A stretch of DNA of 51,259 nt, taken from Bacteroidota bacterium. Its GTDB lineage: Bacteria > Bacteroidota > Bacteroidia > Chitinophagales > Saprospiraceae. The stretch covers positions 37,942 to 89,200 of the forward strand of contig JAHEAR010000007.1 in the NCBI GenBank assembly GCA_024642665.1, read 5' to 3'. Numbering within the stretch: position 1 is the stretch's first letter; each line of letters begins with the position of its first letter. This document shows, piece by piece, positions 1 to 50,241 of the stretch. A program made the position numbers and the translations under genes. The notes below the pieces were generated by a model that was given only the letters and a program-made list of their open reading frames with translations, was not told where the DNA came from and searched no databases.

Positions 1-275
1 ATACTGAGATGAAGGACTACGCCTTCACTGTAAACTGAGATGAAGGACTCAAAGTCGTTGGAGCAAACTCCAACAACGGCCATTATGGTAGATGAGTCGT
101 TGTGTGATTAATTAATTGGCCGGTGTGGGGAGTCTCGCGTCTCGCTCCCAATGGATCGTGATCGGGTCTCATTTCTATTGGAAAATGTGTTTAGAATGGT
201 TTTCCCGCTTAGCGGGAGAAGTGCCATGGGCAATTGTTGTTGAGTTTTAGTTTCCTGATTCGTAAATTTTCCCTT
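1..275. repeat. Intergenic repeat region downstream of purD
   Basis: No gene is visible here. A 16-nt direct repeat (ACTGAGATGAAGGACT) lies at 3-18 and 34-49. A small inverted repeat, GTTGGAG-CAAA-CTCCAAC, lies at 57-74. GTCTCGC-type heptamer words occur around 129-150. Copy 1 of the dispersed GTTTAG element occupies about 186-253. GTTCACC heptamers at about 279-298 run into the 3' end of purD. The upstream gene is outside the window. Confidence 0.7.
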
Positions 276-1574
276 TTACCGTTCACCGTTCACCCTTGAC
301 CTTTCCATAAGATCCTTCCCAATATCCTTCCGATAATATTTTCCTTCAAATTGAATCGTTTCAGCATTCAGGAGGGACTGTTCGATGGCTCCTTCAAGGG
401 AACTGGCCAGACTCGTGATGGCGATTACGCGACCACCTGAAGTGACAATGGCATCCTCTTTTTGGGTAGTGCCTGCATGATACACCCGACTACCGGCGAT
501 AAGGTCAAGACCATTGATGACTTTTCCTTTTTCATAAGCCTCCGGATATCCCCCGGAAGCCAGAATAATCGATACAGCAAATCGAGCATCAAACTCAACT
601 TGCATTTTATCCAACGTGCCATGCCAGGTGGCCATCAACAATGCTACTAAGTCTGTGCGCAATCGCGGCAAAATAGCCTCCGTTTCCGGATCCCCTAAGC
701 GGCAATTATACTCAATGACATATGGATCGCCATTGACGAGAATGAGTCCAAAAAACACAAAACCTCGGTATTTAATATTTTCTACTCTTAAACCATCAAT
801 AGTTGGTTCAATGACTTGTCTGACCACTTTTTCATACACTTCCTTATCCACAAACGGAACAGGAGAAACCGCACCCATTCCCCCGGTATTGAGTCCCTGA
901 TCTCCCTCACCAATTCGTTTGTAATCTTTTGCTTCAGGTAACAAAACATAATGATTGCCATCCGTTAGAGCAAAAACTGAAAATTCAATACCAGATAAAA
1001 ATTCTTCAATCACCACAGTTGCACTTGCAGAACCAAATTTTCCGGACAGCATCTCCCTGATTTCATACTGCGCTTCTTCTTTGGTATGACAGATCAACAC
1101 GCCTTTTCCGGCAGCTAGACCATCCGCTTTTAAGACCACCGGATAAGCGTGGACACTTAGATAATCCAATGCTTCATTTAATTGGTCCTGAGCAAAGGAT
1201 TTATAAGCTGCAGTAGGAATTCCATGTCTGCCCATAAATTCTTTCGCATATGCTTTACTGCCTTCAAGTTGTGCGCCTTCCGCCGAAGGTCCGATGATTG
1301 GAATGTTTTTGAGAACTTCATCATGGCTAAAGAAATCAGTAATTCCCTCCACCAGAGGCACTTCCGGCCCAACGATGACCAGTTCAATTGCATTTCCCAA
1401 AACAGCAGTCTTGATAGCCGCAAAATCATCCACTACTATCGAAAGATTTTGTCCTATCAATGCAGTGCCGGCGTTTCCCGGAGAAATAAACAAATGAGTA
1501 CAAAGTGAACTGGACGCCAGTTTGTCGGCCAAAGCATGTTCCCTGCCTCCGCCACCAATAATCAGAATATTCAT
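276..1574 (-). CDS. purD: Phosphoribosylamine--glycine ligase (GAR synthetase)
   Basis: Ligates glycine to phosphoribosylamine with ATP, the second step of de novo purine synthesis, in the cytoplasm. At 432 aa it has the normal PurD length. The N-terminal domain opens with GGGGREHAL (residues 7-15), followed by GPEVPLVEGI (about 69-78). The ATP-grasp core shows KADGLAAGKG (149-158), GGMGAVSP (231-238) and GDPETE (294-299). The ATG start is set by the canonical MNILIIGGGGREHAL opening. The gene diverges from ruvA across 71 bp. The last codons (RVNGER) are encoded by GTTCACC-type heptamer repeats, so the extreme C-terminus is probably repeat-derived and not part of the enzyme fold. A TATCTTTA box about 12-19 bp upstream of the start is a weak promoter candidate. 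Confidence 0.97.
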   Translation of the reverse strand: MNILIIGGGGREHALADKLASSSLCTHLFISPGNAGTALIGQNLSIVVDDFAAIKTAVLGNAIELVIVGPEVPLVEGITDFFSHDEVLKNIPIIGPSAEGAQLEGSKAYAKEFMGRHGIPTAAYKSFAQDQLNEALDYLSVHAYPVVLKADGLAAGKGVLICHTKEEAQYEIREMLSGKFGSASATVVIEEFLSGIEFSVFALTDGNHYVLLPEAKDYKRIGEGDQGLNTGGMGAVSPVPFVDKEVYEKVVRQVIEPTIDGLRVENIKYRGFVFFGLILVNGDPYVIEYNCRLGDPETEAILPRLRTDLVALLMATWHGTLDKMQVEFDARFAVSIILASGGYPEAYEKGKVINGLDLIAGSRVYHAGTTQKEDAIVTSGGRVIAITSLASSLEGAIEQSLLNAETIQFEGKYYRKDIGKDLMERSRVNGER

Positions 1575-10910: not shown

Positions 10911-10983
10911 TTAAAGCTATCTGTTGGAAAATTATTTCGCACACAGAAGCGCAGTTTTGATTTTTTCTGTTAAGCAATTTTTG

Positions 10984-11095
10984 TAATTCGTAATTCGTAA
11001 TTCGTAATTTTTATTTTATCCTACGCCCTACGCCCTACGCCCTACGCCCTACGCCCTGCGCCCTGCGCCCTTTGCCCTTTGCCCTGCGCCCTATG
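10984..11095. repeat. Heptanucleotide repeat arrays (TAATTCG and CCCTACG)
   Basis: Three tandem TAATTCG units (10984-11004) are followed, after a short T-rich spacer, by eleven consecutive heptamers from 11019 to 11095: TCCTACG, CCCTACG four times, CCCTGCG twice, CCCTTTG twice, CCCTGCG and CCCTATG. The phase is never broken. The last unit contains the cysS stop codon (11091-11093, read on the minus strand). The 45461-45649 array belongs to the same heptamer family. Confidence 0.9.
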
Positions 11096-12590
11096 CTTTC
11101 AGCGCCCAACTTGTTCCATCCTTTCCATCTTTGAGATCAATTTTAATTTCATTCAATGTATCTCTGATTTTATCGGAAGTAGGCCAGTCTTTATTTTCAC
11201 GTGCCTGTTGACGCATATCAATGACGAGTTTCATCAAACCATCTAACTGATCCATGTGTCCATTATGATCTTCTGTTTCTTTTTTCAAACCAAAAACGAC
11301 AAACAGTAAGTCTTCAAAACCTTTTTTTGCAAGGTCCAGCGCATATTGTCCTGCATCATCGACATTTAATTGCCCATCAGACAGTTTGTTGATGGTAGGT
11401 ATCAACTCAAACAATCTGGCCAGAGCTTTTGGCGTATTGAAATCATCGTTCATTTCTTCAACGGCCGCCTGTATCGTTTGTTCAATTTCTATAGCCACGG
11501 GTGAGTCGCTTTTAGGATTTGCGGATGAAAGCTCCAGAAGTGTTTTGTATGCCTCCATCAAACGCTGATATCCTTTTTCAGCGGCTTGTAGCGAAGTATC
11601 ATTCAGATCAAGTGTGCTGCCGTAATGCGCCTGGAGAAAAAAGAATCTCAAAACCATTGGCGAATAGGCTTTGCTGATATGATCACTATCCCCTGTAAAT
11701 AACTCTGTGGGGGTGATATTATTGCCATCGCTTTTGGACATCTTTTTTCCATTTAACAACAGCATATTACTATGAATCCAATAGTTGGCCGGTGTGTTTC
11801 CGCAAGCTCCGTAATTCTGGGCTATTTCATTTTCATGATGGGGAAATTTCAGATCATTTCCTCCGCCATGGATATCAAAACGCTCTCCTAAATATTTTGT
11901 GCTCATCACAGAACATTCGAGGTGCCAGCCCGGAAATCCATCCGACCATGGCGCATTCCATCGCAGCAGGTGTCGTTCATCTGCTTTAATCCAGATCGCA
12001 AAATCTGATGGGTGTCTTTTCTCACCCTGATTTTTCAGATCTCTTGTTTCCACCAATAGGTCTTCAACTTTTCTTCCGGACAGCTTTCCATAAATGTCTG
12101 CTTCCTGGATCAGCTTGTTCGTATCAAAATAAACGCTGCCATTAGCTTCATAGCCATATCCTCGCTTGATGATTTCCTCGACCATTTCAATTTGTTCAAG
12201 GATATGTCCGGTGGCCCTGGGCTCGATGCTTGGTTCCAGCGTGTTGAAACGACGCATGATATCATGAAACCCATTCGAATATCGCTGGACAATTTCCATG
12301 GGCTCGATTTGTTCAAGTCGTGCTTTCTTACTGATTTTATCCTCAGCATTTGAATCTGCATCTCCTTCCAGATGACCTACATCCGTAATATTTCGCACAT
12401 ACCTGACCTTGTATCCGAGATACATCAGATATCGGTAGATGATGTCAAAACTGACAAAGGTGCGGCAATTACCAATGTGGACATCACTATAAACGGTTGG
12501 ACCACAGACGTACATGCCTATTCGTCCTTCATGGATGGGCTGGAATACTTCCTTCGTGCCACTGATGCTATTTTGGATTTTTAAGCTCAT
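11091..12590 (-). CDS. cysS: Cysteinyl-tRNA synthetase
   Basis: Charges tRNA-Cys with cysteine in the cytoplasm; class I synthetase. At 499 aa it is slightly longer than the typical 460-490. The class I signatures are HIGN (38-41, after PTVYSDV) and KKMSKSDGN (about residue 283). The catalytic zinc site is indicated by Cys29 (MYVCGPT) and GWHLECSVMS with HHENEIAQ. An anticodon-binding C-terminal domain follows. The ATG at 12590 gives the canonical N-terminus. The stop codon is supplied by a heptamer repeat array. A TATTTTTG box lies just upstream of the start. Confidence 0.97.
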   Translation of the reverse strand: MSLKIQNSISGTKEVFQPIHEGRIGMYVCGPTVYSDVHIGNCRTFVSFDIIYRYLMYLGYKVRYVRNITDVGHLEGDADSNAEDKISKKARLEQIEPMEIVQRYSNGFHDIMRRFNTLEPSIEPRATGHILEQIEMVEEIIKRGYGYEANGSVYFDTNKLIQEADIYGKLSGRKVEDLLVETRDLKNQGEKRHPSDFAIWIKADERHLLRWNAPWSDGFPGWHLECSVMSTKYLGERFDIHGGGNDLKFPHHENEIAQNYGACGNTPANYWIHSNMLLLNGKKMSKSDGNNITPTELFTGDSDHISKAYSPMVLRFFFLQAHYGSTLDLNDTSLQAAEKGYQRLMEAYKTLLELSSANPKSDSPVAIEIEQTIQAAVEEMNDDFNTPKALARLFELIPTINKLSDGQLNVDDAGQYALDLAKKGFEDLLFVVFGLKKETEDHNGHMDQLDGLMKLVIDMRQQARENKDWPTSDKIRDTLNEIKIDLKDGKDGTSWALKA

Positions 12591-20747: not shown

Positions 20748-20822
20748 ACCTGAGACTTGGAGACCTGAGACTTGGAGACCTGAGACTTGGAGACCAGGGA
20801 CCTAGGACTTATGGACCTAAGT
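20748..20822. repeat. 15-bp tandem repeat GACCTGAGACTTGGA
   Basis: Three near-perfect tandem copies of a 15-bp unit that can be read as 7+8 nt words, followed by decayed copies (GGACCTAGGACTT). On the opposite strand the words are CCAAGTC and CAGGTCT, the same vocabulary as the arrays at 14920-14990, 29955-29985 and 51223-51240. Confidence 0.85.
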
Positions 20823-44825: not shown

Positions 44826-44880
44826 TCGTCATTCGTAATTTTCACCACTCACCACTCACCACTCACCACTACTTCACCAC
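44826..44880. repeat. TCGTAAT and CACCACT heptamer array
   Basis: TCGTCAT-TCGTAAT followed by four perfect CACCACT heptamers (44843-44870). The array contains the stop codon of the DUF4920 gene (44869-44871). The same CACCACT words recur at 50221-50239, next to the stop of the polyprenyl synthase gene. Confidence 0.85.
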
Positions 44881-45351
44881 AACTACGCCGGTGGCCATAA
44901 ACTTCTTTTCAAAAAGTGGCTCGGTGATCGCGGCGATTTCTTCTTCACTTTTGCCTTCGTCTTCTGCATAGTGCTTTAATTCTTCTACGCTGGTACGTTC
45001 AGAATATGCTTTCCCTTCAACGATGACTTCACTGCCGGAAAGATCTTTGGGCATAAAAAATCCATAATCGAAAAACTGAACAAAAATCTCGCCGTCTGAA
45101 GCTCCTGAAGGATCCACCAGATTCATCCAGCATCCTTTCGTCTGACAGACACTTTCTACTTTGCCTTTCATAACAACATTCATAGAATCAGCTGTATCGA
45201 GCTGCGCATAAACCTCTGAAAAGCTTACCGCAGATGCCGTATTGGAAACGCCGGCACCATAAATGCCGTCCTCTGATACTTCTGCACTTTTACATGAAGC
45301 CAAAAGGATAATGCCTAGAAAGAGGGTTGATAAAATTTGAATAATTTTCAT
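44869..45351 (-). CDS. DUF4920 domain lipoprotein
   Basis: 160 aa. The lipobox LLASC gives lipidated Cys20. The mature domain matches DUF4920: a VVMKGKVESVCQTKGCWMNL segment (CxxxGCWM, about 64-77), a DGEIFVQFFDYGFFMPKD strand pair and SEVIVEGKAY. The CQTKGCW cysteine pair might bind metal or form a disulfide. No function is established for the family that I know of. Its stop codon is inside a CACCACT array. Confidence 0.9.
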   Translation of the reverse strand: MKIIQILSTLFLGIILLASCKSAEVSEDGIYGAGVSNTASAVSFSEVYAQLDTADSMNVVMKGKVESVCQTKGCWMNLVDPSGASDGEIFVQFFDYGFFMPKDLSGSEVIVEGKAYSERTSVEELKHYAEDEGKSEEEIAAITEPLFEKKFMATGVVVVK

Positions 45352-45745
45352 AAGTCGTTTGATATAAATGATTTAGGGCGCAAATATATGTTGATTTGCC
45401 GAATATGTATTTTTTTGGATGTTGTTCTGCAGTGAAACATGAGTTCAGGGTGTTTACCCCCACGCCCCATGCCCGATGCTCCCTGCCCTTTGCCCCACGC
45501 CTCCTGCCCTATGCTCCATGCTCCATGCCCTTTGCCCTTTGCCCCACGCCTCCTGCCTCCTGCCCCATGCCCCATGCTCCATGCCCCATGCCCCATGCCT
45601 CCTGCCTCCTGCCCTATGCTCCATGCCTCCTGCCCTACGCCCCATGCCCTTTTTCGTAATTCGTAATTTTTATAATTCATTGAAAATCAGCCGTTCACCT
45701 TTTACCGCCCAACGATCACCCTTTTTACAATATTTCTCCTTTTTC
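45352..45745. repeat. Long heptanucleotide array GCYYNNY upstream of rpsF
   Basis: From 45461 to 45649 there are 27 uninterrupted heptamers of pattern NNYGCYY (for example CATGCCC, CCTGCCC, TATGCTC, TTTGCCC, CACGCCT) with no phase slip, followed by TTTTT, TCGTAAT, TCGTAAT and TTTTT. GTTCACC-type words (CGTTCAC, CTTTTAC, CGATCAC) follow at 45692-45722. Open frames through this array exist on both strands but only because the repeat lacks stops. No real gene is seen in 45352-45854. Confidence 0.93.
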
Positions 45746-45775
45746 TTGCATAACCCGCTCTTTTCCTTATCTTTG
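45746..45775 (+). promoter_or_regulatory. Promoter of the rpsF-rpsR-rplI operon
   Basis: TTG at 45746-45748 and TATCTTTG at 45768-45775 with a 19-nt spacer fit the Bacteroidota -33/-7 consensus closely. Transcription would start near 45781, giving a leader of about 73 nt. Confidence 0.7.
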
Positions 45776-45854: not shown

Positions 45855-46376
45855 ATGCGGCATTATGAACTAACATTCGTGGTCGATCCTGTTTTGTCCA
45901 ATGAGGAGATTCAATCCATCAGACAGACATATGAGGATCTGGTTAAGACCCAAGGTTGTACGATCATCCATATGGAGGACGGCGGCCTTAAACAATTAGC
46001 CTACCCAATCAACAAACGCAATTCAGGAATTTATTTCACCATCGAGTTTGCAGGAGAAACAGGTGAAGCCATTGCTCCAATCGAATTGGCCCTGCGCCGT
46101 GACGAAAGGATCATGCGCTTTCTGACCATCGGACTGGACAAATTCGGTGTGAAGTACAATGAAGACAAGCGTAACGGACTGATCAAGAAAGTTCAGCGGT
46201 TGAAAAAGAAGGCTTCCAAACCGGCTGATTCAGCTGCTTCTGATAGACCTGCCGAAAAGGTAGCTGAGAAAACAGCTGAACCCGCAGCAGTAAAAACAGC
46301 AGTACCGGAAGAAGTCTCTGTTGAAGTAGCAGCCCCTGAAACGGAGGCATCTAATGTAGTTGAAGGAGAAGAGTAG
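45855..46376 (+). CDS. rpsF: 30S ribosomal protein bS6
   Basis: Binds 16S rRNA together with bS18 in the small-subunit platform. The start is the ATG at 45855, because MRHYELTFVVDPVLS is the canonical S6 opening. An in-frame start at 45810 would lie inside the leader hairpin. 173 aa: the S6 domain occupies about 1-115, and an Ala/Glu/Lys/Pro-rich acidic tail (about 116-173) extends it, as in other Bacteroidota. First gene of rpsF-rpsR-rplI. Confidence 0.97.
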   Translation: MRHYELTFVVDPVLSNEEIQSIRQTYEDLVKTQGCTIIHMEDGGLKQLAYPINKRNSGIYFTIEFAGETGEAIAPIELALRRDERIMRFLTIGLDKFGVKYNEDKRNGLIKKVQRLKKKASKPADSAASDRPAEKVAEKTAEPAAVKTAVPEEVSVEVAAPETEASNVVEGEE

Positions 46377-50067: not shown

Positions 50068-50241
50068 CTGATCATTCGTAATAGAATCGATAATTGGAGA
50101 GGATCAAAAACTAAACGCTATCCTTTTCAGATGGTAGTACTCAACTTCGATACCACAAGGTGTCGAAACTAAAATCCTCAACACAATGTCAAAAGCATAA
50201 TCAAAGAATAGACCAAACACTACTCACCACTCACCACTTTT

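Follow-up and report, generated by a model that had tools for sequence, protein, structure and literature searches.

The array of 27 heptanucleotides upstream of rpsF in the genome studied here is probably a solo arm, or a repeat derived from an arm, of small mobile elements that carry a PF05635 (IVP) gene, and heptanucleotide arrays of this kind would be the complete or cast-off arms of intergenic IVS-like elements. PF05635 is the family 23S_rRNA_IVP, a four-helix bundle (IVP / S23p / Avd-like). Sequence comparison indicates that most of the IVP loci tested have an inverted-arm architecture, that the arms of one element usually belong to one word family and that unrelated elements differ in word. 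By the same comparison elements are inserted between genes at sites that are empty in relatives, and homologous IVP genes with arms of the same family stand at different loci in sister species. Words of IVP arms also recur in gene-less palindromes and solo arrays of the source genome.

The array upstream of rpsF

The window is the whole stretch of 51,259 nucleotides that was analysed. It belongs to contig C5 of a 3.7 Mb assembly of 72 contigs that is 98.3% complete. This source genome is referred to as G000 and a relative of the same genus, the sister species, as G001; C denotes contigs and L loci. The features of the window used below are as follows.

45461..45649, + strand (C-rich strand on +): solo array of 27 heptads, family A (NNYGCYY = GCYYNNY), no strong partner, no fold
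45653..45668, + strand: family B word TTCGTAA, 2.3 copies (TRF), directly 3' of the array
44869..45351, - strand: 160-aa ORF, divergent neighbour, same order in G001
45746..45775, + strand: promoter-like stretch of rpsF, TTGC ... TATCTTTG, downstream of the array and conserved in G001
45855..46376, + strand: rpsF (gene name from the earlier note)
44842..44870, + strand: family C array (TCACCAC)4; in G001 the orthologous gap has family C arms as a full inverted pair
50218..50238, + strand: family C array (CACCACT)3; the orthologous gap in G001 holds family A words instead
10983..11009, + strand: family B array (GTAATTC)3.9
11020..11103, + strand: family A array, with the family B array before it
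265..306, + strand: family D array (TTTTACC/GTTCACC)

The promoter-like stretch was judged by the Bacteroidota -33/-7 consensus. The array is situated 205 bp 5' of rpsF, between divergent genes, and is made up of 27 in-phase heptads with zero indels. In the register NNYGCYY the G and the C are invariant in 27/27 units, and the two final Y are C in 22/27 and 21/27 units, respectively. Identity at lag 7 is 0.736, as compared to a mean of 0.365 and a maximum of 0.478 in 2000 shuffles. The exact period of 7 and the 27 uninterrupted heptads described in the earlier note are confirmed, as is the noncoding position of the array. There are 11 distinct words among the 27 units. The description of the array as a mosaic of related words, and not one slipped word, also holds. 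TRF scored a 49-bp (7-unit) period higher than the 7-bp period (223 and 160), identity at lag 49 is 0.807, and whole identical units are in weak excess at lags of 7 and 8 units (4/20 and 5/19, with 1.8 expected each). The earlier note had suggested an origin by recombination, and duplication of a 49-bp block is indeed visible; the larger explanation in terms of arms of IVP elements was not anticipated.

The best inverted partner within 900 bp of the array scores just 16, which is not strong, and as RNA the + strand of the array does not fold (z +1.15). On the minus strand, runs of 3-4 G are visible every 7 nt. There is no PF05635 ORF inside the array, and 0/8 of the IVP loci of G000 are on contig C5. 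By eye, the array shares the words GCCCCAT and GCCCTTT with the right arm of IVP locus L216. Used as a query against plasmid records, it returned one weak Providencia record only, and an Rfam search of the window gave a tRNA as the sole match.

Heptanucleotide arrays across the genome

A BLAST search of G000 with the array resulted in 49 matches, the array itself counted. Periodicity was evaluated in 451 kb of G000, comprising the window and 20 stretches of 20 kb, at least 5 of which were picked to include known matches. Intergenic identity in this sample was 0.309 at lag 7, 0.301 at lag 14 and 0.295 at lag 21, while the other lags from 2 to 20 spanned 0.272-0.290 with lag 8 the highest at 0.2896; three 100-N gaps were left unmasked in this count and raise every lag about equally. 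No excess at lag 7 was observed in the coding DNA of the sample (identity 0.252). The lag-7 autocorrelation of intergenic DNA that the earlier note had put forward as a check is thus present in the sample and confined to noncoding sequence. A 15-bp unit that looks like 7+8, (ACCTGAGACTTGGAG)3.2 at positions 20748-20795 of the window, may partly explain a small excess at lags 8 and 15.

G000 contains dozens of arrays that fall into few word families and whose period is always 7. The families, by our own grouping, are A (GCYYNNY), B (TTCGTAA), C (TCACCAC/CACTGAC), D (GGTTAAA/GTTCACC), E (GTGATGG) and F (CGACGCG). Transitions made up 649 of 887 changes between adjacent units in 66 family A arrays (625 units), at places partly picked for holding such arrays. 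The family B word was found within 60 nt of family A arrays 14 times on the 5' side on the same strand, three times on the 3' side on the same strand and once on the opposite strand; at the array upstream of rpsF it is on the 3' side. The same word, TTCGTAA, also forms the arms of IVP elements in Nostoc and Dolichospermum plasmids. At one further place (L152 1788-2227, G000:C33), a tandem block of about 121 bp combines family A heptads with CCCCGACCCCTAAAGGGGAGAATACA.

Most of the sampled G000 arrays are solo, like the one upstream of rpsF. A strong inverted partner within 900 bp was lacking at 38 of 43 arrays, and inverted partners (5/43) were not commoner than direct ones (9/43). When arrays were compared with the neighbourhood of another array as a control, 5.3% passed as well.

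Copies of the array were located at or near the ends of contigs C23, C38, C47, C54, C67, C70 and C72, some of them near 100-N gaps, which indicates that the assembly tends to break at arrays. Exact array lengths in this fragmented assembly are therefore uncertain. The repeats themselves are no artefact of assembly, an outcome that the earlier note had allowed for, since heptad arrays of TTCGTAA, a word family of G000, occur in complete plasmid records. A query holding the TTCGTAA array at 10983 matched 14 plasmid records, 13 of them cyanobacterial and one from Bernardetia, in line with the tie to cyanobacterial heptanucleotides drawn in the earlier note. Visual inspection also showed one run of TCAGTTA next to TTCGTAA in Bernardetia.

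Inverted arms around PF05635 genes

One of the plasmid matches of the 10983 query abuts a gene for a 'four helix bundle protein'. PF05635 matches were found in 232 of 296 sampled Bacteroidota genomes, and G000 has 8 PF05635 loci. By eye, heptad-like words flank the gene at 8/8 of these, mostly inverted and with matching words (L216 GCAGGAG/CTCCTGC; L214 GTCAGTG/CACTGAC; L215 GTGAAAA/TTTTCAC; L218 GGGTGAT/ATCACCC; L212 CGACGCG/CGCGTCG). Flanks were scored by local alignment of the left flank with the reverse complement of the right flank, at a common cut-off of >27. Six of the eight scored as an inverted match; L213 has an exact match of 12 bp, and L219, a partial gene, has no match.

The analysis was extended to 84 IVP loci, namely the 8 of G000, 29 from other genomes of the same family, 30 from across the Bacteroidota and 17 from plasmids. 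The 29 and the 30 are the best-scoring loci and not a random draw. The plasmid loci are 13 cyanobacterial, one from Treponema, one from Bernardetia and two from Chlorohelix (Chloroflexota); they are the 17 examined out of 26 plasmid records with an IVP match (H19, H20, H21, H23, H25, H30, H31, H39 and H41 being left out). Inverted flanks scoring >27 were observed at 58/84 IVP loci as compared to 13/219 control ORFs of 95-170 aa (3/42 from G000 and 10/177 from named Bacteroidota), and 25 flanks of rpsF scored at most 27. By group the counts were 6/8 in the source genome, 20/29 in the same family, 16/30 across the Bacteroidota and 16/17 in plasmids, the one failure among the last being a Chlorohelix locus (L290). 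No significant inverted flanks were found at the other 26 of the 84 loci.

Flanks were also scored in permuted pairs, for which the family gave a median of 19, a 95th percentile of 27 and a maximum of 196; 26 of the 37 loci of the family exceeded this 95th percentile. Of the 30 loci from across the Bacteroidota, 16 exceeded 26 and 9 exceeded the permuted 99th percentile. Sixteen of the 17 plasmid loci exceeded 32, and just 7 passed the 99th percentile of permuted pairs (58) because different loci share words. Further IVP sets, which overlap with the 84 loci and were not added to them, scored >27 at 12/25 and 21/28 loci (L262 and L335 omitted from the latter).

Tracts with a period of 7 were present at 39/84 IVP loci and at 8/219 controls, and any other lag from 4 to 12 was found at no more than 6/84. 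Inverted flanks that are not heptads also occur, as in L280 with a unique inverted repeat of 50 bp and likewise in L255. In complete records, the arms include a perfect inverted TTCGTAA repeat of 39 bp in Nostoc (C052) and one of 33 bp in Dolichospermum, and the arm words GAGAGCG in Treponema, CCAGTGA in Euhalothece and GATTAGT in Bernardetia. Among the 56/84 loci scoring >30, to which the polarity and wobble counts were limited, the 5' arm had more G than C at 47/56 and less at 8/56, and the RNA-sense wobble bias between arms was not significant (G/A 65, A/G 52). The IVP element L284 folds together with its flanks at z -6.4. In orthologous IVP loci, inspected by eye only for compensatory change, the arms drift.

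None of 20 IVP loci tested had a match in Rfam, rRNA included, and the elements there are thus not inserted in 23S rRNA; those in plasmids are positioned between protein genes. A search of phage records with one IVP query gave no match. The PDB entry matched by the Nostoc IVP is 2rld, whose protein is uncharacterised.

Insertion, empty sites and the sister species

At the rpsF locus, G001 has the same neighbours (the 160-aa gene and rpsF) and a conserved promoter-like stretch, and no array. On the syntenic contig, 7 of 12 G000 arrays fall in 6 gaps that are bracketed by alignments, the other 5 being not bracketable. G001 has arrays in 3 of these gaps, one of the same word family and two of another, and none in the remaining 3, among which is the gap upstream of rpsF. 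In the adjacent gap (window 44842), G000 has a short solo array, whereas in G001 family C arms form a complete inverted pair. This G001 palindrome lies between convergent genes and folds at -146 kcal/mol (z -12).

Empty sites were also found among plasmids. An element of about 480 bp with TTCAAAA arms is located at the junction of two genes in an Aulosira plasmid, and the same two genes are 2 bp apart in four related plasmids, the four fetched out of 36 matching records. The element stands in place of about 30 bp, among them the initial codons of one of the genes, and no target-site duplication was recognised in this one aligned insertion. Similarly, an IVP element separates cas2 and cas1 in two plasmids, and the two genes are 2 bp apart in a Nostoc plasmid that is without the element.

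Some gene neighbourhoods recur. In plasmids of Nostoc TCL26-01 (L283), Anabaena cylindrica (L285) and Pseudanabaena galeata (L288), an IVP with inverted repeat-like flanks is found between cas2 and cas1 (twice) or beside cas1. At five loci from Cyanobacteria and Chloroflexota (L210, L286, L289, L290 and L292), the IVP is between helicase/DUF1156 and DNA-methylase/Swt1-HEPN genes, and drmD is named in two Planktothrix records. The recurrent helicase-methylase position could also reflect a functional partnership.

Orthology between the sister species was evaluated at 4 IVP loci, from the 8 in G000 and 6 in G001. At three of these, all in G000, no IVP is present at the orthologous place in G001, where the gaps are about 160, 370 and 490 bp; the fourth (L242/L212) is common to both species. 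The homologue of L217 in G001, which is also the best match of L216, is at C87:33.5 kb with family A arms, and that of L214 is at C35:28.0 kb with family C arms. At the empty L216 locus of G001, GTGATGG/GTGAGTA words are still present to the left and family A words to the right, and the empty L214 locus has a GGTTAAA/CTAACCC pair without an IVP. The comparison thus indicates that sites gain and lose IVP genes, and that the heptad arms there are kept, changed or lost. A dispersed sequence, GTCGCCGTAGCTTYAGCGAAGGAGA, was noted beside heptad arms at G001:C33 ~4.0 kb and G001:C35 ~28.5 kb.

In the Bacteroidota, several IVP loci are of old standing, with synteny across genera, so that mobility there is slow or past. 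Within one Bacteroidota family (L258, L259, L264, L305-L313, L317, L320-L324 and L333), some IVP genes are at the same place across genera with differing arm words; one such place, seen by eye, is just before a gene starting MSEAYIIDGI.

Shared words and correlation across genomes

Copies of arm 12-mers were counted in dispersed G000 DNA with the IVP loci masked, for loci with at least 8 arm 12-mers (7/8 of the source genome, L242, 15 others of the family, 20/30 from across the Bacteroidota and 16/17 from plasmids). Median copies were 0.72 for the IVPs of G000 and 1.24 for L242 of G001, as compared to 0.04 for other genera of the family, 0.03 for other Bacteroidota and 0.18 for plasmids. The TTCGTAA arms of the Nostoc and Dolichospermum plasmids had 4.2 and 2.9 copies.

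In 100 genomes of the family, the copy number of IVP was correlated with the number of heptad-pattern matches (Spearman 0.59, and 0.52 after genome size, with kinship ignored). The heptad pattern comprises the GCYY pattern and its reversed control, which also catches heptads. Any match to it was found in 37 of 83 genomes with IVP and in 1 of 17 without.

Proposed origin of the arrays and alternatives

A complete element spans roughly half a kilobase or somewhat more and has three parts. Its core is the PF05635 gene for the four-helix-bundle protein. On the 5' side of the gene is an arm of tandem heptanucleotides, usually reading as the G-richer strand, and on the 3' side an arm with the reverse-complement sequence of the first. 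By analogy with the IVSs of 23S rRNA, the arms would fold into an RNA stem that RNase III cuts, and insertion in transcription units would therefore be tolerated. Palindromes and solo arrays may then arise when an element loses its gene or one of its arms, and replication slippage in steps of 7, together with block duplication and C/T transitions, may generate the mosaic. The array upstream of rpsF would be one such solo, cast-off arm. As many arrays are unpaired (38/43) and inverted partners are no commoner than direct ones, the descent of solo arrays rests on shared words and on sister loci that have a pair or another arm.

Alternatively, arrays could arise locally by polymerase slippage that favours units of 7 nt, as put forward by Mrazek, with IVP genes merely situated in repeat-rich intergenic DNA. 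Heptanucleotides are reportedly the most abundant long simple repeats in most of the genomes surveyed, for which an explanation by polymerase contacts has been given (Mrazek 2007 as cited in PMC4679880), and the block duplication and the 649/887 transitions fit slippage plus point mutation. Local slippage would likewise fit the finding that arrays have a strong direct partner as often as an inverted one (9/43 and 5/43). Slippage alone would however not put the same words at dozens of unrelated loci, and the inverted match between the two flanks of IVP genes is far stronger than in permuted pairs or at control genes. We consider it an unlikely source of the arrays, although it probably still shapes their length. 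Templated addition of repeats at DNA breaks by a telomerase-like reverse transcriptase would account for the exact 7-nt phase, for the G-richer strand reading inward at both ends (47/56) and for the usual single word family in the arms of an element. It was rejected as scarcely credible on the account of there being no RVT_1 (PF00078) match in the 98.3%-complete G000, and the units vary beyond what one template would yield.

Two further explanations place the cause in the array itself. Regulation of rpsF, or a phase-variable promoter repeat, is suggested by the location 205 bp upstream of the gene between divergent genes, but G001 has the same gene order and the conserved promoter-like stretch without the array. 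Moreover, the array is upstream of that stretch and its words recur at many other places, which renders such a role very improbable. Selection acting on the solo array, as raised in the earlier note, finds no support: the sister locus has the same neighbours and no array, and the array fails to fold (z +1.15). Selection for nucleic-acid structure, either a G-quadruplex on the G-rich strand or a bidirectional terminator hairpin, would agree with the G runs seen at 7-nt intervals on the minus strand (3-4 G each), with the G4-forming heptads of Xanthomonas and Nostoc studied by Rehm 2015 (PMC4692102) and with the G001 palindrome between convergent genes (-146 kcal/mol, z -12). Other families in G000 (TTCGTAA, TCACCAC and GTGATGG) are however without such G runs, the array upstream of rpsF has no RNA fold on + (in a calculation that covered RNA folding only), and arrays turn over between the sister species. 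This explanation was accordingly considered quite improbable.

The origin from arms of IVP elements may, more tentatively, extend further. Bacterial heptanucleotide repeats, including cyanobacterial STRRs, Bacteroidota arrays and perhaps the TAACTGA and GGGAATC repeats, might largely be footprints of IVP elements, although we place the odds slightly against so broad a scheme. Arms made of 7-nt units would be recognised by the toroidal four-helix-bundle protein of the element, and the word would serve as that element's own tag. Elements of the class would have entered 23S rRNA genes, as the classical IVS, as well as cas2/cas1 junctions, defence operons with a helicase and a methylase, and ordinary DNA between genes, and would have done so in several phyla. 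With arrays as arms of IVP elements, two old and separate puzzles, the heptanucleotide repeats of Cyanobacteria and Bacteroidota and the IVS elements, would have one testable explanation. PF05635, so far an orphan family, would be the likely core of a mobile element of wide distribution, and inverted heptads around the gene would offer a way to find such elements. A caution follows for arrays 5' of genes such as rpsF, which need not be regulatory.

Comparison with known systems

The closest counterpart is the IVS of 23S rRNA. In Coxiella this IVS is 428 nt long and has tandem GACAGAT heptamers before the S23p ORF, the number of which varies by strain; RNase III cuts the IVS RNA, on the 5' side at the first GACAGAT heptamer (PMC4990558). 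As in the IVSs of Coxiella and Leptospira, a PF05635-type ORF is combined here with terminal inverted repeats that form a stem, and repeats able to do so were found at 58/84 IVP loci and not at 26. In contrast to the 23S rRNA IVSs, the present elements are between protein genes (0/20 tested in rRNA), their arms are often longer heptad arrays whose word differs between elements, and gene-less and solo forms predominate in G000. The S23p protein of Xanthomonas (Xcc0516) is described as a homopentameric toroid of four-helix bundles (PMC4990558). PF05635 is said to resemble Avd of diversity-generating retroelements (PMC10053308), and unlike these G000 has no RVT_1 reverse transcriptase.

Heptanucleotide repeats have been reported in several contexts. 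Heptamers of TAACTGA occur in Beggiatoaceae, Cyanobacteria and 5 Bacteroidetes (MacGregor 2015, PMC4679880), and the statement in the earlier note that no Bacteroidota counterpart has been described is therefore to be corrected. Two Cyanothece strains differ in these arrays mostly by 7-nt indels, and the arrays were read as possible sites of a translational regulator, without mention of IVP as far as the text was available (PMC4679880). GGGAATC and GGGGAYT repeats in Xanthomonas and Nostoc, which were read as G-quadruplex elements, are like the arrays here G-rich heptads whose length differs between close relatives (Rehm 2015, PMC4692102), and Xanthomonas, with its GGGAATC repeats, also carries the S23p protein Xcc0516 (PMC4990558). 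In the literature searched, as far as the texts were available, no paper drew a general link between heptamer arrays and IVP elements, heptamers being noted for a single IVS in the Coxiella study (PMC4990558).

Cyanobacterial heptanucleotide STRRs resemble the arrays described here in that tandem 7-nt units are found at many intergenic places. The word in common, TTCGTAA, is one that G000 shares with cyanobacterial plasmids. To our knowledge, STRRs have been described as repeats only, whereas here TTCGTAA arrays serve as arms of IVP elements in two plasmids of Cyanobacteria.
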